DNA of 36,697 nucleotides. Origin: Candidatus Saganbacteria bacterium CG08_land_8_20_14_0_20_45_16. GTDB taxonomy: Bacteria > Margulisbacteria > WOR-1 > O2-12-FULL-45-9. Below are positions 17,922 through 33,075 of this stretch, piece after piece. Both the position numbers and the translations under genes were made by a program. Positions within the stretch are counted from its first letter, which is position 1, and each line of letters starts with the position of its first letter. The notes below the pieces were generated by a model. That model worked only from the letters and a program-made list of their open reading frames with translations. It searched no databases and had not been told where the DNA came from. The DNA is taken from assembly GCA_002774365.1 (NCBI GenBank), contig PEYM01000048.1:1-36697 (forward strand), in the 5' to 3' direction.

Positions 17922-19535
17922 TTATTTTCTACCTTCCATCATTTTAAAGATTTGCTCGCCTTCAACCCGAGAGACAATCGCCTCGGGCCTAAAAGTCCCA
18001 TCAGGAAAAGGTCGAAGCAAATTAAGTTGGCCCACTACTTTTATGTATGCTGCCAAGGGATGATCTTTGGGTACATCCGCGTAAACATCTCGGTCAACTG
18101 GCGGCAATTTGACCCCGGCCGCCTTTACAATCCAAGTTGCCAGCTCGCCGCGAGTAATCCCCGCATCCATCACTAAATCTTGGCCTGGCTTGATCTCAAT
18201 CACGCCCATGGTCACTAGCTCTTCAACTTTTTCTTTGACCGGCCGCGGAGCCGCTAGCGCAACTTTGGCCTTACGTAAAACCTTGTATTTCCACATCTTC
18301 TTGTCGCCTTTGTATCGCGCCTCAGCCACAATCAAATTTTTGCCTAAATTAAGCGGGACAGTTGCCTTAAAATTCCCTGCCTCGTCAATATACGCCAGGG
18401 CATCATTGATATAAATTGCCACCCCAGGTTTGGCCTTGCCAAAAATTTCAATTTTGTCATCGTAGACTACAACTTCATCTTCGCCCAGAGAAATCTTTTC
18501 AATTGCGTTCTCTAAAATAAATTGTGGTTTTTGCAATTCTAACTTGCGTAGCAAGACCCAATCAGTTGGGAAATAAAGCAGTGACAAAGAAACGTAATGA
18601 TCACCGCGTATCGGTTCACGGTAGCCAGCCAAATCAATCCCCCAGTTTTGGGCCCGCCAGCCTAAGCCAAAATTAAAATCACTGGTAACACCATTGAGCT
18701 GGAACTGCTGCATCAAACCAGCCCGCACAAAAAATTGCCGGTTCAGCCCGAGTTCGCCGCCAGCCCGCAACAAGGATCCTTTGCTAGCTGCACAAATTTC
18801 ACCTGCCAAGAGCAGCTCCTTACCTTCCATAAAGATTGGCGAATCAATGTCCCCAATAACTTTGGCTGATCCGCCAAGTCTAAGCAGATCAGGTAATGGC
18901 TCGTCTCCCCCCACATCCCAATGGACCACGCCGCCACCCAAGGCACCCTGTTCGAGCAAGCTCTGCCAGGAAAGCCCAACTGTTGACCAATCTGTTGGCC
19001 GATACAAAACTCCCAAATCCAGGTCCCAACCAGCCGCGGAGCGATCAATCTGGCCCGTTTGCTGTAAGGTTTCGGTTAAGACTCCTTTAACGTTCAACCC
19101 CACGCCAACCCGTTGCCAAAAAGGCTTGTCGTACAAAGCAGGCAAAAAGGTTAATTTGGTCCCATAAGAAAGATAAACTACCCGACTGGTCGAAGTCGCC
19201 AGCCCTCCTGTGATCGGGATATCATTAATCTTGCGCGCCACTACTGCCAAACCAAGCGAGGCTCCATCACCATTGGGAAAGGCTTGGACAATGCTTAAAT
19301 TCTCTGTATTGCGAAAAGACAAAGAAATCCCTTTGGTCCAAGCCAAGCCAGCTGGGTTATAAAAAGCAACATTAACATCATTCGTCAGACCAGAAAGCGC
19401 CCCACCCATGGCCACAGAGCGGCCACCACTTTCCACCAAAAGAGGATCAAGCCCCAGTTCAGCTAGATACGCTTGCGCCACTTGAGGAATAGCAAAAAAA
19501 GCAGCCAAAAAAAAGGCTGCGAAGATCTTTCTCAT
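17922..19535 (-). CDS. PorV/UPF0164-like outer-membrane barrel with C-terminal SLH domain
   Basis: A 537-residue protein from ATG 19535, chosen because it begins a signal peptide (MRKIFAAFFLAAFFAIPQVAQA); an in-frame codon 12 residues upstream would precede the promoter. The N-terminal part carries GGRSVAMGGALSGLTND and VAFYNPAGLA, the signature of PorV/UPF0164/FadL-like barrels, followed by repeated beta-strands to about residue 330. A small Ig/PEGA-like segment (about 345-420, DKIEIFGKAKPGVAIYIN) leads to SLH-like motifs at the C-terminus (RGELATWIVKAAG, DVPKDHPLAAYIK, FPDGTFRPEAIVSRVE). SLH domains usually bind peptidoglycan-linked polymers. Having SLH at the C-terminus of a barrel is the reverse of the cyanobacterial/Deinococcus porin order. 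First gene of the operon. Confidence 0.85.
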   Translation of the reverse strand: MRKIFAAFFLAAFFAIPQVAQAYLAELGLDPLLVESGGRSVAMGGALSGLTNDVNVAFYNPAGLAWTKGISLSFRNTENLSIVQAFPNGDGASLGLAVVARKINDIPITGGLATSTSRVVYLSYGTKLTFLPALYDKPFWQRVGVGLNVKGVLTETLQQTGQIDRSAAGWDLDLGVLYRPTDWSTVGLSWQSLLEQGALGGGVVHWDVGGDEPLPDLLRLGGSAKVIGDIDSPIFMEGKELLLAGEICAASKGSLLRAGGELGLNRQFFVRAGLMQQFQLNGVTSDFNFGLGWRAQNWGIDLAGYREPIRGDHYVSLSLLYFPTDWVLLRKLELQKPQFILENAIEKISLGEDEVVVYDDKIEIFGKAKPGVAIYINDALAYIDEAGNFKATVPLNLGKNLIVAEARYKGDKKMWKYKVLRKAKVALAAPRPVKEKVEELVTMGVIEIKPGQDLVMDAGITRGELATWIVKAAGVKLPPVDRDVYADVPKDHPLAAYIKVVGQLNLLRPFPDGTFRPEAIVSRVEGEQIFKMMEGRK

Positions 19536-19543
19536 TTGTCGAT

Positions 19544-19571
19544 ATTTTAGCACACCATAAGGACAATGCAA
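19544..19571 (-). promoter_or_regulatory. Short-leader promoter of barrel-SLH operon
   Basis: On the minus strand TTGCAT (19566-19571), 16 bp, then TAAAAT (19544-19549), which ends 8 bp before the ATG at 19535. No Shine-Dalgarno. Confidence 0.5.
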
Positions 19572-20900: not shown

Positions 20901-23141
20901 ATGTTTTTGAAATCTCTTATCCTGCGTGGCTTTAAAACTTTTGCCGACCAAACAGAAATTGTTTTTGCCGATGACTCAAGGATCACTGCCGTTGTTGGCC
21001 CTAACGGCTGTGGCAAGAGCAATTTAATGGATGCGACCCGCTGGGTTTTGGCAGAAGATAATCCGCGTGAGCTGCGGGTCGCCAACCTCTCCAATATAAT
21101 TTTTGCCGGCACAGCCAGCCGCAAAGCCTTGTCCTTAGCCGAAGTTACCATGACCTTTGACAATTCAACCAATAAGTTCCCCCTGCCCTTTTCCGAGGTC
21201 GCAATCAAACGCCGCACTTTTCGCGAAGGTGAGAGCGAATTTTTTATCAATAAAAACTCCTGCCGGCTCAAAGACATTAAAGACTTGCTTTTGGATACCG
21301 GCCTAGGAGAAAGCACCTATTCCATCATTACCCAAGGCCAGGTTGACGCAATCCTTTCTAGTAAAGGCGAAGAGCGACGGGCAGTCTTTGAAGAGGCCGC
21401 CGGCATCAACAAATATAAGACCAGAAAAGAATCAGCCAAGAGAAAGCTCATCGCGGCCGAACAAAATATCTTACGCATTAGTGACCTTAAGGTTGAAGTG
21501 GCTGAGCACATCACTGTGCTTGAAGAACAAGCTAAGACCGCCCGGCACTATCTTGAAGTGCAAAATCAGGTCAAAGGGCTTGATCTGGGCCTTAGTAAAC
21601 GGCTCTTGACCACTATCTTTGAAAAAAGGGACCACTTGACCGCAGAGCTGGAAAAGGCTAGGTCAAGCTCCCTGACCAAAAAACAAGCTGAGGACCAAGA
21701 CCTAACTGAGCTAGACAACCTAAAAAATTCTCACCGAAAACTAGAGCAAGAAATTGACGTTTTGTTTCTCCAAATTAACGACGAAAAAAACGCGCGGCGC
21801 GATCTTGAGCTAGACCGCCGCTTTACTGAAAGCGAGCTGGGACGCAGCGAAAAATCGTTGGCCGTAGAACAAGCCAAGCTGGGCCAGCTCAAGGATAAGG
21901 TCGAGCTGCTGCAAAAAGAGCTGACCCAAGAAAAACAGGGTGTGGATTTGTCTGACACCCCCTTTGCCAAAACAGTTGAGGCTATTTTAGCCCAATTCTC
22001 TCAGCTAGTCACAGCTTTCTCAAAATACCTTAACGCCCTGGGCAAGAATATTCAGCTCAACCTTGTCATCGGCCGCTCACCAGAGAAAGAAGAAACGCTT
22101 AAGCTTAAGGTTGAAATGGTTCAAGAAGAGATCAAACGCACCCAACAGAACAAAGCACAGCTTGAAACAGCATTAAATGAACAGCGCCAGGGACTCGCTG
22201 ACCTAAACGAAAAACTTAAAACAACCCAGCTCTCCGAAGAACACGATAAAACACTGCAACAAAAACGGCAGGACAAAGAAGCCTTGGTCAAAACCATTGC
22301 TGGGCTAGAAACTAAGATTAGAAAGCAAGACCAGCTGAAAAAAGAAGCACTAAGCACCGAGTCATCACTGGAAATTGCCTTGGCTAAACTGGACGGGGAG
22401 CTAGGCGGCATCAGGGAACGCTTATTTTTAGAATACAACCTTTCTTTGGAAGAGGTCGCAGCAACCAATTACGAAATCCCCAACATTGCTAAGGCCAAGA
22501 AAGAGATTGAGGAAGGCAAAGAAAAGCTGCGCTCGCTAGAACCAGTCAACCTGCTGGCCATTGATGAATTTGACAAAGCCAAAGAACGCCTCTCCTTTAT
22601 CGACGCCCAGCTTAATGACCTCAGTTCAGCCCGCATCCATTTAGAGTCCTTGATCACAGAGCTTGACTCCAAAGCCGAGCAAACCTTTGTTGCTACTATG
22701 GCCCAGCTTTCGCAGGTTTTTTCAGAGACCTTTGCTAAATTATTTGTTGGTGGCGAAGCCAAGATCTCTCTGGCACCAGACGCCCCACCACTCGAAGCAG
22801 AGATTGATATTTCAGTTAGGCCCTCTGGCCGCAAATGGCTGCCCTTGCCCCTGCTGTCTGGCGGCGAGCGGTCCTTGTCAGCCATTGCCATCTTGTTTTC
22901 ATTGTTAAAAATCCGGCCCAGTCCCTTTGTCTTTATGGATGAGGTGGACGCAGCCCTTGATGACGCTAACATCGGCCGATTTACTGAAATGCTTAAGGAA
23001 TTTTCCAATCACAGCCAGATTATCGTCATCTCCCACAACAAAAGAACCATGGCGGTCGCAGATAATATTTACGGCGTAACCATGGAAGAGCCAGGAATCT
23101 CAAGGATTATCTCCATGAGGCTGGCTGAAACAACCAAATAA
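20901..23141 (+). CDS. smc: SMC-family ATPase, short form lacking a recognisable hinge
   Basis: A 746-residue protein with both SMC head halves. The N-terminal head has MFLKSLILRGFKTFAD, Walker A GPNGCGKS (33-40) and the Q-loop region ITQGQVD (143-149). The C-terminal head has the signature LSGGERSLSA (652-661), Walker B FVFMDEVDAALDD (676-688) and ISHNKRTM. EPVNLLAIDEFDKAKERL (547-564) is the usual bacterial Smc segment before the C-head. Coiled coils run from about 175-345 and 395-545. Bacterial Smc is normally about 1,150-1,190 residues with a 150-residue globular hinge; here only about 50 residues (347-397) separate the coils and no hinge motif is visible. The gene is intact. A weak -10 (TATGAT, 20884-20889) lies 11 bp before the ATG. 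Confidence 0.9.
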   Translation: MFLKSLILRGFKTFADQTEIVFADDSRITAVVGPNGCGKSNLMDATRWVLAEDNPRELRVANLSNIIFAGTASRKALSLAEVTMTFDNSTNKFPLPFSEVAIKRRTFREGESEFFINKNSCRLKDIKDLLLDTGLGESTYSIITQGQVDAILSSKGEERRAVFEEAAGINKYKTRKESAKRKLIAAEQNILRISDLKVEVAEHITVLEEQAKTARHYLEVQNQVKGLDLGLSKRLLTTIFEKRDHLTAELEKARSSSLTKKQAEDQDLTELDNLKNSHRKLEQEIDVLFLQINDEKNARRDLELDRRFTESELGRSEKSLAVEQAKLGQLKDKVELLQKELTQEKQGVDLSDTPFAKTVEAILAQFSQLVTAFSKYLNALGKNIQLNLVIGRSPEKEETLKLKVEMVQEEIKRTQQNKAQLETALNEQRQGLADLNEKLKTTQLSEEHDKTLQQKRQDKEALVKTIAGLETKIRKQDQLKKEALSTESSLEIALAKLDGELGGIRERLFLEYNLSLEEVAATNYEIPNIAKAKKEIEEGKEKLRSLEPVNLLAIDEFDKAKERLSFIDAQLNDLSSARIHLESLITELDSKAEQTFVATMAQLSQVFSETFAKLFVGGEAKISLAPDAPPLEAEIDISVRPSGRKWLPLPLLSGGERSLSAIAILFSLLKIRPSPFVFMDEVDAALDDANIGRFTEMLKEFSNHSQIIVISHNKRTMAVADNIYGVTMEEPGISRIISMRLAETTK

Positions 23142-23148
23142 ATTAAAA

Positions 23149-25884
23149 ATGTCACATGATACGACAAAAAGGTTTCAAGGCTTCAAGGTTTCAAGGCTTC
23201 AAGGCAAACAAGTTTTACTGCTTTGCTTCTTGTCATTTGTCATTTGTACTAATGTTAAAGCAGATCCCCAACCCCTTTGGCCAAGCTTTGGCCTAGAAAT
23301 CAATGATGCTATTGGTAATACCTCTCAGCAAAAGCCTCAAATTATTAATGCTGGCGATTCCAGTTATCTTGTTGTTTGGGAAGACGGCCGGGCTGGCTAT
23401 GATGACCTTTACCTCCAAAAACTTGGGGCCAGCGGCCAGCCGCTCTGGCAAAAGGACGGGGTGGTGGTTTGTGACCAATCTGGCAATCAAAATTTTGCCC
23501 AGCTGATAAGTGACAACGCAGGCGGGGCAATTGTTGTTTGGCAAGACTATCGCAATGGCAATGCCGATATCCTGGCCCAACGCTTTGATCAAAGCGGCAA
23601 TGCCCTTTGGGCAAACGGTGGCGTTTACGTTTGTTCTGCTTCGGCCGGCCAGTTTAACCCGCAAATCACTTCCGATGGCCAAGGTGGCGCGATCATTACC
23701 TGGCATGACTACCGCAATGCCATTGGCGAAGACATTTACGCTCAACGCCTTAATAGTGACGGCCAAATTTTATGGGAAAAAGATGGCGTGTCCATCGTGT
23801 CTGTCGCTGGCACCCAATGGTACCCTAAAATTGCTTCAGATAATGCTGGCGGGGCAATTATTGTTTGGTCAGACAGCCGGACCAGCTCAAGCGACAAGAA
23901 CATTTTTGCCCAAAGGATCAATAGCCAAGGAATATCCCTGTGGCAAAAAGACGGCCTGCCTGTTTGCTCGACTGCTAATAACCAAGAGTCACCAAATCTT
24001 ATTGTGGCCGACGACCAAATTATAATCGCTTGGAATGACGCCCGCTCTGGCAACAATGATGTTTACGCCCAGAAACTTGACCTTAACGGCTCTGTCCAAT
24101 GGGCAGCTGATGGTGTGGCTTTGTGTTCTTTCCCCTATCCTCAAGAGAACCCAGCCATTGCTAGCGATGGCAACGGCGGGGCCATTGCGGTTTGGACTGA
24201 TAGCCGCACAGAAAAGGCTAATCTCTATGCCCAACGCATCTCTGATAGTGGCAATATCCTTTGGGCCGAGAACGGGATTCCTGTGGCTGCTTCGCTAAAC
24301 CAACAAGGCGCACCGCTCATAAAAAAAGCCAGCCCAGATGACTGGCTCATTGTTTGGGAAGAAGATCACCCCTGGCGGCAAAAAAAAGATCTCCTCGGAC
24401 AAAAGATCAACAGCGCTGGCACGCGCCTTTGGGGCAGTGGCCAGCCAATTGTTGAGGCTAATCAAAACCAAGAATCGCCCTCCCTGACCGCCTCAGCCTC
24501 AGGGGAATTAGTCGTAGTCTGGCAAGATAAGCGTTTTGGCAATACTGATCTGTATGCCCAAAAAATCAACCTTAACGGCAACCGACTCTGGGGCAAAGAC
24601 GGGCAACTTGTTTGCAATGCCCAGGGCTCGGTCTTTCAGCAAAAAATCACGCCTTGTTTTAACAATAAGGGTCGGGTCTTGTTGGCTTTTGAGGATGGGC
24701 GTTTTGGGTTTTCTAATATCTACCTCCAACAAATCACGCCGCTCGGCCAGCTTGTTTGGGGCCCTGCTGGTCTGGCCGTAGCCAAAGTTGAGGCTGATCA
24801 AATTGACCCTTGCCTGGTCGCTGACAGCAAAGGCGGGACAATTATTGCTTGGACTGACTTTCGACAGGTTGGATATCCTTTGATTAGGGCTCAACGCATT
24901 ACTGCGCAAGGCAAAAACGCCTGGACAAGTAGTTTGCCTGTCGCGCCAAGCACAGCCAGCCAGGAAAAACCTCAGATTATTTCCGACTCAGCTGGCGGAG
25001 CAATCATTGCCTGGCAAGACGAACGTGATGTTTTAAGCCAAATAGATTTATATGCGCAACGCATCTCTGAGCAGGGAAAATTGCTGTGGGGGCCAAAAGG
25101 CAAGATCATTATCTCAGAAAACGGCCAACAAGTTGATTTTGCCATGATACCAGATAACAACAACGGGGCGTTTTTTATCTGGACCGATTACCGGCTTGGC
25201 GATCGCAACCCAGATATTTACGCGCAGCGAATTAACTCTAAAGGCGATCCCCTGTGGGCGAAAGACGGCGTCATAGTCTGCGGAGCCCCGGACATTCAGC
25301 GTTTGCCGCGGCTCGTGGCTGACGGCTCAGGCGGCATTATTGTTTCTTGGACCGATAAGGGTGGCGGCAGCTATGACATTTACGCCCAACGGCTGGATAG
25401 CAGAGGCCAATTTATTTGGGCCAAAGACGGGATTGCCATTAATCAGCTAAGCCGCACCCAACAAAATTCGTTCTTTGGCAATAAAAAGATCTTGGTCTGG
25501 GAAGACTACCGCCTGGGCAATTGGGACCTTTATGCCGCCGCAGTTTCAAGTGCCGGAAAACTCCTGTGGGGAGAGGATGGCGTCCCAATTGTTACTGCTA
25601 CCCAAACGCAATACGCCCCGCAGTTGGCCCCTCTTAATGACGGCAGCGTTATTGTTGCCTGGGAAGATTATCGCTGTGGTAAATACTATGAGCTGTATTT
25701 TCAAAAGATCAACCTTCAAGGCGAAGTCAGTTGGACAGAAAACGGCCGGAAAAACAAGAGCCGTGATGGCGGCAGAGCCCCTAGGGTCCTAGCCCCAAAT
25801 AGTGATCATACTTTTTATCTTTTCTGGGAAGACTACACCAACGGCGGCCGCGCCATCTACGGCCAGCGTTATTTAATTAATTAA
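23149..25884 (+). CDS. Secreted protein of sixteen tandem W-D-R/LW repeats (beta-propeller-like)
   Basis: A 911-residue exported protein. The signal peptide ([18 protein letters not shown], likely cut before DPQ) is preceded by a 20-residue n-region encoded by a period-8 DNA repeat. The rest is about 16 copies of a 50-55-residue unit of the form [20 protein letters not shown], then D-x-x-G-x-x-LW, K-DG and V-x-V-C. Conserved W, D, R, YAQ and LW positions and the short strands suggest beta-propeller blades or an elongated beta structure. The last unit ends at the C-terminus with no sorting or anchor domain. Function unknown; probably surface or secreted. It starts 7 bp after smc, and its 3' end overlaps metK by 4 bp. 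Confidence 0.85.
23171..23202 (+). repeat. Period-8 repeat at the 5' end of the repeat-protein gene
   Basis: GGTTTCAA and GGCTTCAA alternate, four units in all, encoding the residues [11 protein letters not shown] ahead of the signal peptide core. The 23231-23247 tract just downstream contains TCATTTG repeated with period 7, within the signal peptide. Confidence 0.75.
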
Positions 25885-29105: not shown

Positions 29106-29528
29106 ATGGGAAATCTAAGCGAACACTTTAACAACAAAGATTTTGCCTGCAACTGCCCAGAATGTAGGGGTGAGTACAAAATCCATCTTGGCCTGGTTGG
29201 GGCCTTGGAGCAAATTGGTTCTCATTTCAAAAAAAAGGTCAGGATTGTTTCTGCTTATTGGTGCGATGCTTTTCACGAAAAGCAAAACAAGCCCAAACGC
29301 AGCTTTCACACCAAGGGTAAAGCCGCCCACATTATTATCGACGGCACCTCACCCCAGGAACTATTTAAATTTGCTGAAACCGTAACTGAATTAAGGGGGC
29401 TAGTTTATTATCCCAAAGAGCCATACATCCATGTTGACACTCGGCCTGAAAACCAAGCCCGGCTCGTCAAAGAAGGCAGTGACTACTTGGCTCTGACCCC
29501 TGACAAAAGAGAAAAGTACGGACTCTAA
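29106..29528 (+). CDS. Peptidase M15-like (DD-carboxypeptidase) protein with altered zinc site
   Basis: A 140-residue protein resembling the M15A/Peptidase_M15_3 domain that cleaves D-Ala-D-Ala-type peptidoglycan bonds. The opening EHFNNKDFACNCPEC, the RIVSAYWCDAFHEKQN segment and SFHTKGKAA match the family layout. The usual zinc ligands are H-x6-D and a later His. Here His68 and His109 (in YIHVDTRP) remain, but the Asp is His75. No signal peptide is seen, so it may act in the cytosol or be phage-derived. The Cys-rich N-terminus (CNCPEC) could bind metal. It shares a TAATG junction with xer. Confidence 0.75.
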   Translation: MGNLSEHFNNKDFACNCPECRGEYKIHLGLVGALEQIGSHFKKKVRIVSAYWCDAFHEKQNKPKRSFHTKGKAAHIIIDGTSPQELFKFAETVTELRGLVYYPKEPYIHVDTRPENQARLVKEGSDYLALTPDKREKYGL

Positions 29529-30427
29529 TGATGGCTAAAGAGCAAAGCCGTGCCTCTCCGCTGATTGCCCGGTTCACTAATTACTTGACCACTGAACGCA
29601 ATTACTCTGGCCACACTATTTCCAACTATCGCCGAGATTTGACTTTTCTCATGAGTTTCTTAAAGACCAAGAAGATCGACCGGAGCACCGCCAGGGATTA
29701 CTTGCAAGAGCTAGAAAACCGGCATTACTCAAGGAGGTCGATTGCCAGAAAGCTTTCGTCAGCCCGTTCTTTTTTCCGTTTTCTGCTGCGTGAGAAGCTC
29801 ACAGCCAAAAACCCCTTTGAAACCCTGCTCACGCCCAAGCTGCCTAAAAAGCTGCCCAATTTTCTTTATTTAGAGGAGCTCAACAAGCTATTGAGCTCGC
29901 CAGATGAAAAAAGCCTGGCCGGCAGCCGCGACCGGGCTATCCTGGAGCTTCTTTACGGTTCCGGAGTGCGGGTGGCAGAGGCGATCCACCTCAACCAGGG
30001 AGACATTAATTTTGAAGAAGGTGAGCTGCGGGTCTTGGGCAAGGGAGCAAAAGAGCGGATCGTCCTGTTTGGCTCGGAAGCCAAACAGGCCCTGCAAAAA
30101 TATCTTGGGTCCAGCCGGCCCAAATTAAGCGTTAACAATCACCTGGCCGCGGTTTTCTTAAACCTGCGAGGCGGGAGGCTCACTTGCCGTTCAGTTGAAA
30201 GAATGTTGACTAAATACGCCAAGCTCGCTGGCATTACGAAAAAGGTTACACCGCATACCTTGCGCCACTCCTTTGCCACCCACCTTTTAGCTGGCGGTGC
30301 GGACTTAAGAGTGGTCCAAGAGTTATTAGGCCACGTCTCTCTCTCAACTACCCAAGTCTACACCCACATCACCAAAGAGCGGCTGAAAGAAGTTTACGAC
30401 GCCGCGCACCCTAGGGCCACAAGATAA
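29528..30427 (+). CDS. xerD: Tyrosine recombinase XerC/XerD
   Basis: A 299-residue site-specific recombinase. The N-terminal SAM-like core-binding domain covers about 10-95 and the catalytic domain about 110-295. Catalytic residues are Arg148 (GSGVRVAEA), Lys172 (GKGAKER), His243 and Arg246 (HTLRHSFATH), His269 (LLGHVSLSTTQVY) and the nucleophile Tyr278. Size and motifs fit the chromosomal-dimer resolvase rather than a phage integrase; XerC, XerD or the single XerH-like type cannot be told apart by eye, so the symbol is tentative. It overlaps the M15 stop by one base; a second ATG follows immediately at 29531. Confidence 0.93.
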   Translation: MMAKEQSRASPLIARFTNYLTTERNYSGHTISNYRRDLTFLMSFLKTKKIDRSTARDYLQELENRHYSRRSIARKLSSARSFFRFLLREKLTAKNPFETLLTPKLPKKLPNFLYLEELNKLLSSPDEKSLAGSRDRAILELLYGSGVRVAEAIHLNQGDINFEEGELRVLGKGAKERIVLFGSEAKQALQKYLGSSRPKLSVNNHLAAVFLNLRGGRLTCRSVERMLTKYAKLAGITKKVTPHTLRHSFATHLLAGGADLRVVQELLGHVSLSTTQVYTHITKERLKEVYDAAHPRATR

Positions 30428-31132: not shown

Positions 31133-32113
31133 GTGATCCGCATCGCAGTTGATGCGATGGGTGGAGATCATGCCCCTGCTGAAATTGTCAAAGGGGCAAT
31201 CGCTGCTAGTCAGGTGTTAGACGCAGAGATAATATTAGTTGGTACTCCAGCTAAATTGGAAAAAGAGTTGCGTCTTCGCAACGCCAACCTTTCCATAGTC
31301 GCGGCTGCTGAAGTAATTGGGATGAACGAGCCGCCAGCCCAAGCCGTGCGGCAAAAAAAAGACGCCTCAGTCAATGTTGCTATCCAATTAGTTAAAGATG
31401 GCAAGGCTGACGCGATTGTTTCAGCCGGCAGCACCGGCGCCCTGATGGCCGCGGCCCTATTTAAGCTCGGCCGGATCCAAGAGATTGAGCGGCCAGCCAT
31501 TGCCACAGAATTTCCACTACCATCAGGCAAGGTCTTATTGCTTGACATGGGGGCCAATGTTGACTGCAAACCAATCCACCTTAAGCAGTTTGCGATCATG
31601 GGCAGTCTTTACGCTGAACACGTCCTTCATATCAAAAATCCCAGGGTTGGCCTGCTCAACATTGGCGAAGAAAAAGAAAAAGGCAACGAGCTGGTCAGAG
31701 AAACCTGGCCTTTGCTCAAAGCAGCCCCAATTAATTTTATTGGCAATGTTGAGTCAAAGGAGATCCTGCGAGGTAAAGCTGATGTTATAGTCTGCGACGG
31801 CTTTGTCGGCAACTTAATCCTAAAATTTGCGGAAAGCCTAGCCGGTTCAGTCTTTAAACTGTTTAAGGAAGAGCTAACCCGCGGTTTATTGAGCAAGGTT
31901 GGCTTAGCGTTTCTAATGCCGGCGATCCAGCGTCTGCGCAAAAAGATCACTTATGATGAGCATGGGGGCGCGCCGCTCCTGGGCATTCAAGGGGTTGTTT
32001 ATAAAGCTCATGGCCGAGCTAAAGCCCAAGCCATTAAAAATGCAATTATTCAAACATATGAAGCCGCCTCTAAAAAAGTCCCAGAAAAAATCAATACAGG
32101 AACATTTAACTAA
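31133..32113 (+). CDS. plsX: Phosphate acyltransferase PlsX
   Basis: A 326-residue soluble enzyme that converts acyl-ACP to acyl-phosphate for phospholipid synthesis. IRIAVDAMGGDHAP at the N-terminus, SAGSTGALMAAALFKLGRI and CDGFVGNLILK are diagnostic. It starts with GTG directly after the rpmF stop; translation probably relies on coupling. The order rpmF-plsX-fabH is the classic one. Confidence 0.95.
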   Translation: MIRIAVDAMGGDHAPAEIVKGAIAASQVLDAEIILVGTPAKLEKELRLRNANLSIVAAAEVIGMNEPPAQAVRQKKDASVNVAIQLVKDGKADAIVSAGSTGALMAAALFKLGRIQEIERPAIATEFPLPSGKVLLLDMGANVDCKPIHLKQFAIMGSLYAEHVLHIKNPRVGLLNIGEEKEKGNELVRETWPLLKAAPINFIGNVESKEILRGKADVIVCDGFVGNLILKFAESLAGSVFKLFKEELTRGLLSKVGLAFLMPAIQRLRKKITYDEHGGAPLLGIQGVVYKAHGRAKAQAIKNAIIQTYEAASKKVPEKINTGTFN

Positions 32114-33075
32114 TGAAAGCCAAGATCATCGGGGTCGGCTCAAACCTACCGAAAAAAGTTGTAACCAACGCAGATCTAGAAAAAATAGTTGAAACCAACG
32201 ACGAGTGGATCAAGACCCGCACTGGTATCTGTGAACGTCGGGTAACAGATTATGACACCTCAACTTCTGATCTGGCAATTAAAGCAGCAGAAAAAGCACT
32301 GCAAGCAGCTAAACTTGACCCGGAAAAACTTGACCTTATAATAGTAGGCACCACCTCGTCAGATTATCTTTTCCCTTCAACAGCCTGCATCCTGCAAAGC
32401 AAGCTTGGCGCGAAAAATGCCGCGGCTTTTGATGTCTCGGCCGCTTGCGCCGGCTTTAATTTTGCCCTGACCACGGCCACGCAATACATTGAGAACGGGA
32501 CTTACCAAAACGTTTTAGTTGTCGGCGCAGATACACTAACTAAATATCTGGATTGGACCGACCGCGGCACTTGCATTTTGTTTGGCGACGCGGCAGGCGC
32601 CGTGGTTTTAACCCAAAGCTCAGATGATTCAGGTGTTTTAGCCAGCTGGCTTAAGGCTGAAGGCCAGCTCGGAGATAATTTGATTATGCCAGGCGGCGGC
32701 TCACGCGATCCAGAGCAGCGACATGGCCGCTTTATCACCATGAACGGCAAAGAGGTCTTTAAATTCGCTGTCAGGGTGCTCGAAGAGTCAATTAAAGCTG
32801 TCCTGCAAAAAGCAAACTTAGAGATTAAGGATGTTAATTTGTTGATACCTCATCAAGCCAATACTCGGATCATTGACCACGTCAGCAAAAAGATGGGACT
32901 GGCTAAAGAAAAAGTTTTTGTTAACTTACACAAATACGGTAACACCTCAGCCGCCTCTATCCCGCTCGCCTTAGACGAAGCCCTGGCTGCCGGCCAGATA
33001 AAAAAAGGCGACCTTGTGATCCTCTCTGGCTTTGGCGCTGGTTTAACTTGCGGGGCAAACGCTATCCGCTGGTAA
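32113..33075 (+). CDS. fabH: 3-oxoacyl-ACP synthase III
   Basis: A 320-residue enzyme that starts fatty acid synthesis by condensing acetyl-CoA with malonyl-ACP. The triad is visible: Cys112 (AACAGFNFAL), His247 (LIPHQANTRI) and Asn277 (HKYGNTSAASIP). It shares a TAATG junction with plsX. No fabD, fabG or acpP follows, so the operon ends here; no clear terminator hairpin is present in the following A/C-rich 40 bp. Confidence 0.96.
   Translation: MKAKIIGVGSNLPKKVVTNADLEKIVETNDEWIKTRTGICERRVTDYDTSTSDLAIKAAEKALQAAKLDPEKLDLIIVGTTSSDYLFPSTACILQSKLGAKNAAAFDVSAACAGFNFALTTATQYIENGTYQNVLVVGADTLTKYLDWTDRGTCILFGDAAGAVVLTQSSDDSGVLASWLKAEGQLGDNLIMPGGGSRDPEQRHGRFITMNGKEVFKFAVRVLEESIKAVLQKANLEIKDVNLLIPHQANTRIIDHVSKKMGLAKEKVFVNLHKYGNTSAASIPLALDEALAAGQIKKGDLVILSGFGAGLTCGANAIRW

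Follow-up and report, generated by a model that had tools for sequence, protein, structure and literature searches.

The window, the whole stretch of 36,697 nucleotides analysed here, carries an smc gene whose frame of 746 codons starts with ATG and is open throughout, confirming the predicted total length of 746 residues. The gene, its parts and its immediate neighbour are as follows.

20901..23141, + strand: smc, encoding a hinge-less Smc of 746 aa (TIGR02168, 699 bits; PF02463; orthologues in 30 of 31 class genomes)
20997..21020, + strand: Walker A motif GPNGCGKS (residues 33-40; conserved in the SMC alignment)
21408..21935, + strand: N-terminal coiled-coil arm (residues 170-345; AlphaFold helix)
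21936..22079, + strand: arm tip in the hinge's place, loop-helix-loop (residues 346-393; AlphaFold, no hinge by HMM, no CXXC)
21960..22037, + strand: amphipathic tip helix, proposed dimer contact (residues 354-379; fragment model, pLDDT about 68-78)
22080..22610, + strand: C-terminal coiled-coil arm and head-proximal joint (residues 394-570; AlphaFold helices 394-441 and 445-512, breaks 513-551)
22854..22868, + strand: ABC signature LSGGE (residues 652-656; conserved in the SMC alignment)
22926..22949, + strand: Walker B motif FVFMDEVD (residues 676-683, with D680/E681; conserved in the SMC alignment)
23149-25884, + strand: secreted beta-propeller-like protein of 911 aa, directly downstream of smc

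The encoded protein matched TIGR02168 at 699.4 bits (9e-210), exceeding the equivalog cut-off of 567.35, and PF02463 matched both of its ends (4.5e-67). Among solved structures, its closest relatives by sequence are heads of bacterial Smc, the best being 3zgx. In an alignment of the window Smc with eight further SMCs (six hinged), Walker A, Q145 of the Q-loop, LSGGE, D680/E681 and the switch histidine H712 were all invariant columns. These family matches and invariant motifs bear out the original prediction that both halves of the ATPase head are intact. By sequence criteria, the ORF is a chromosomal Smc that has kept all of its ABC-ATPase motifs and whose hinge is gone.

The SMC hinge is regarded as the dimerisation part of these proteins and, in some models, also as a DNA-entry or DNA-binding part. 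The hinge model PF06470 had no match anywhere in the host genome, nor in any of 31 genomes of the WOR-1 class in a six-frame search. Since PF06470 also missed Caulobacter among the controls, it was insufficient on its own, and a diverged hinge was considered. A hinge HMM that we built from hinged SMCs gave -0.1 bits for the window Smc and at most 4.8 bits for all 28 extracted WOR-1 Smc proteins, compared with 52-155 bits for hinged SMCs, a range that includes the HMM's own training rows. A diverged hinge overlooked by Pfam was rejected because our HMM split the two groups cleanly and the AlphaFold model was without a hinge fold, with none predicted in residues 345-400, where one would have spoken against the original prediction. 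When composition was used to look for a concealed hinge, the groups overlapped at the margin (0.35 vs 0.34), which makes this a weak test. Neither a separate hinge domain nor a stand-alone hinge gene was found in the host genome, and no CXXC zinc hook motif occurred in any hinge-less protein examined. Thus, with no central hinge found in this chromosomal Smc, we class it as a hinge-less variant rather than as a canonical Smc, and the claim that no recognisable dimerisation hinge lies between the coils held with PF06470, our own HMM and AlphaFold alike.

In the full-length AlphaFold2 model (nine-row alignment, mean pLDDT 75), a helix at residues 170-345 is followed by a loop, a helix at 355-378, a second loop, and helices from 394, while a model of the fragment 285-456 (mean pLDDT 82) placed helices at 286-345, 354-379 and 394-455. 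Confidence was lowest at the tip (pLDDT 36-51 in the full model and 51-78 in the fragment), which was covered by three rows at most of the alignments used for modelling, these being drawn from the window and its related loci. In these models the arm tip is a single helix of ~26 residues (354-379) flanked by loops, in keeping with the suggestion that the middle segment is helical and, having no CXXC, unlike a zinc hook. A fold search of the 285-456 fragment against the PDB returned nothing below an E of 0.001, so no known dimerisation tip was recognised. The arms were estimated at ~176 aa per side, a figure that assumes the B. subtilis head size, versus 344 aa in B. subtilis, indicating that, besides the hinge, both arms have lost their distal halves. 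The flanking coiled coils had been described as intact; coils are indeed present on both sides, but each arm is only about half the B. subtilis length and lacks its distal half. Prokaryotic SMC arm lengths have modes at 238, 341 and 515 aa, with 163 and 423 aa as possible minor ones (PMC5344682).

Across 16 close relatives, no other arm segment was as hydrophobic as the tip (mean Kyte-Doolittle +0.16, with the remaining segments between -0.55 and -1.15). Residues 359, 362, 363, 369, 370, 373, 376, 377 and 380 were hydrophobic in 94% or more of the relatives, and the stripe was regular at a spacing of 3-4. Letter conservation at the tip averaged 0.43, below the 0.51-0.81 of the arms. In 20 of 28 WOR-1 proteins, the most hydrophobic 25-aa arm window was no more than 35 aa away from the midpoint of the arm, compared with 6.3 expected if placed randomly, although these rows are related and therefore not independent, so that the count implies no probability. 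No hydrophobic tip peak was seen in the long basal form G019. Glycine/proline density was uninformative as a tip finder.

The short Smc frame was found in 30 of the 31 class genomes (families f1-f9) and a hinge match in none of the 31; the one genome without an Smc frame (G017) is 69% complete. Leaving aside frames truncated by a contig edge, class Smc lengths were 716-905 aa. Among the 30 is RIFOXYB2_FULL_45_9 (MEUD01000001.1), a single-contig WOR-1 genome titled curated and complete. The 30 class genomes, this curated one included, answer in the affirmative the question, raised with the original prediction, of whether the short form is lineage-wide. Within the same phylum, family f10 has a hinged Smc of 1190-1193 aa, and no Smc was found in most other families, ScpA and ScpB being missing from nearly all of those. 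Many families of this phylum (genomes G032, G034, G035, G037, G039, G040, G042, G045 and others) encode ParB, yet no Smc, ScpA or ScpB was found in them, and one genome (G053) has ScpA and ScpB and no Smc match at the threshold used.

Head-domain trees, which were quick trees with SH-aLRT support and without bootstrap, placed the short WOR-1 Smc proteins in one clade (SH-aLRT 99) that was sister to the hinged f10 Smc (SH-aLRT 96) and apart from Patescibacteria. Since the WOR-1 proteins form a single clade next to a hinged one, a single hinge loss in the ancestor of WOR-1 is the most parsimonious account. Proteins on the earliest WOR-1 branches are the longest (905, 844 and at least 828 aa; branching-order support 80-98), as if the arms had been shortened stepwise within WOR-1. 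A transfer of smc from Patescibacteria was unsupported by these trees.

A second full-length smc was sought in the host genome, a draft of 148 contigs, and none was found, leaving the window Smc as the sole one. Both scpA and scpB turned up in the same genome as adjacent, overlapping and intact genes (ScpA, 255 aa; ScpB, 205 aa; at G000:C50) that adjoin a trpS-like gene, and one ParB is encoded as well. At the smc locus, a homologue of the beta-propeller protein, predicted to be secreted, lies 3' of smc in nearly all WOR-1 loci read, across the class. With intact heads and with ScpA, ScpB and ParB all present, a working Smc-ScpAB is the best reading of this system.

We compared the WOR-1 protein with known systems. 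It shares with canonical B. subtilis Smc the head sequence and motifs, the head-proximal joint, single copy, and ScpA, ScpB and ParB in the genome, but has no hinge, arms of ~176 rather than 344 aa, and a tip made of a single helix. Hinge-less SMC proteins have been known since 2025 from marine Actinobacteria, and the WOR-1 form is a further variant. The main text of Sussfeld et al. (2025, PMC12153180) describes an abundant marine actinobacterial 'hinge-less' SMC cluster, for which a different function or DNA-binding mode was suggested, and does not mention WOR-1. As described there, that cluster resembles the WOR-1 proteins in its Smc heads, antiparallel arms, absence of hinge and CXXC, and in that no second Smc was found, but it belongs to another phylum and comes from ocean gene catalogues. 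The grouping of WOR-1 Smc with the Smc of its own phylum argues against membership in the marine actinobacterial clade. Rad50/SbcC likewise have ABC heads and an antiparallel coiled coil without an SMC hinge, but differ in their zinc hook, their Mre11/SbcD partner, and heads of another family. Among open-licence PMC papers, no paper was found that deals with the SMC hinge in Patescibacteria, Parcubacteria or Margulisbacteria.

Taking these data together, we consider it probable that the protein, as the only chromosomal Smc, powers an Smc-ScpAB condensin in which the arms would pair via the hydrophobic helical tip. The WOR-1 ancestor would have lost the hinge together with the distal part of both arms; ParB would presumably load the resulting Smc-ScpAB. 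Two protomers would meet at their arm tips via the hydrophobic tip helix, forming a small helical bundle that may do the job performed elsewhere by the hinge or the Rad50 hook, and ScpA would close the ring at the head end. Head engagement driven by ATP would then move DNA as in other Smc-ScpAB complexes, only that the lever would be shorter and the hinge DNA channel missing. A precedent for hinge replacement that supports tip pairing is B. subtilis Smc(Zh), in which the P. furiosus Rad50 zinc hook replaces the hinge and growth is normal (Burmann et al. 2017, PMC5344682); like the WOR-1 protein it is without the Smc hinge, but it is engineered and carries a zinc hook, whereas the WOR-1 form is natural and has no CXXC. 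Between a minimal new hinge and another dimer mode, the two options put forward originally, the modelled tip helix, being hydrophobic, speaks more for a minimal dimer contact of helical type.

The main rival to tip pairing is that the tips do not dimerise at all and the protomers are held together at the heads alone, through ScpA/ScpB and ATP-dependent engagement, with arms zipped side by side or apart, such that an open clamp rather than a ring is formed. Poorly conserved tip letters, the variation in class Smc length (716-905 aa), the long basal G019 protein without a hydrophobic peak, and the retention of ScpA and ScpB would all fit such a clamp, but an unused solvent-exposed loop would not need the extra-hydrophobic tip that is kept in most lineages, and we regard this alternative as unlikely. 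A hinge supplied in trans by a partner protein bridging the two arm tips, a split architecture that could keep function without a covalent hinge, is quite improbable given that PF06470 was absent from the 31 class genomes and that the sole conserved neighbour found is the predicted secreted beta-propeller gene. We give very little credence to a Rad50/SbcC-like or RecN-like repair ATPase: the hinge-less coiled-coil layout is like that of Rad50/SbcC and both the sbcC and Rad50 models match weakly (42-44 bits, below the family cut-offs of 478.5-700), but TIGR02168 scores 699 bits, the CXXC hook is missing, the heads nest among bacterial Smc, and the ScpA/ScpB partners are present. Finally, collapse of a full-length smc by deletion in a draft of 148 contigs can be dismissed almost entirely, because the short gene is stop-free in 30 separately assembled genomes of nine families with the same downstream neighbour across loci, and its presence in the curated single-contig MEUD01000001.1 rules out a local assembly deletion.

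Short Smc proteins also occur in Patescibacteria, and one relative came from an Uhrbacteria genome (L129). Smc was found at E <= 1e-30 in 42 of 116 Patescibacteria genomes, with no detectable hinge in 39 of the 42 Smc-bearing genomes sampled. Most Smc proteins of this group (L129, L135-L154, L162-L177) are thus without a detectable hinge. The PF06470 hinge exceeded its cut-off in the other three (3/42), and a weak match in a fourth genome lay on a contig other than that of its smc. Of the frames extracted, 36 distinct ones scored no more than 6.2 bits with our hinge HMM and measured 624-1071 aa, a few being over 950 aa. These proteins resemble the WOR-1 form in their Smc heads, shortened arms and lack of a detectable hinge, and ScpA was present in the one genome checked, but they fall in another clade of the head tree. 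Given this separate placement, Patescibacteria apparently lost the hinge independently of WOR-1. The hinged Patescibacteria proteins (L159-L161) form one clade nested inside the hinge-less ones, so losses there may be several. This distribution suggests that hinge loss is common in small-genome lineages.

A broader proposal, to which we assign slightly less than an even chance, is that Smc-ScpAB shed its hinge several times independently (in WOR-1, in most Smc-bearing Patescibacteria, and in marine Actinobacteria), that a small helical tip took over arm pairing each time, and that a working natural condensin can do without the hinge fold and the DNA channel it forms. A class that keeps Smc, ScpA, ScpB and ParB without a hinge amounts to a natural deletion experiment, and the WOR-1 case would test where in DNA loading and loop extrusion a hinge is needed and where heads, kleisin and arms of suitable length are enough. 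Domain searches that demand a hinge model would miss such hinge-less proteins.

Elsewhere in the window, the downstream side of smc looks like ordinary chromosome: on the + strand, 29528-30427 and 31133-33075 encode a XerC/D-like tyrosine recombinase of the phage-integrase family and, after it, plsX and fabH. On the - strand, 17922-19571 encodes an outer-membrane protein resembling the PorV family, whose C-terminal end gave a weak match to S-layer homology.
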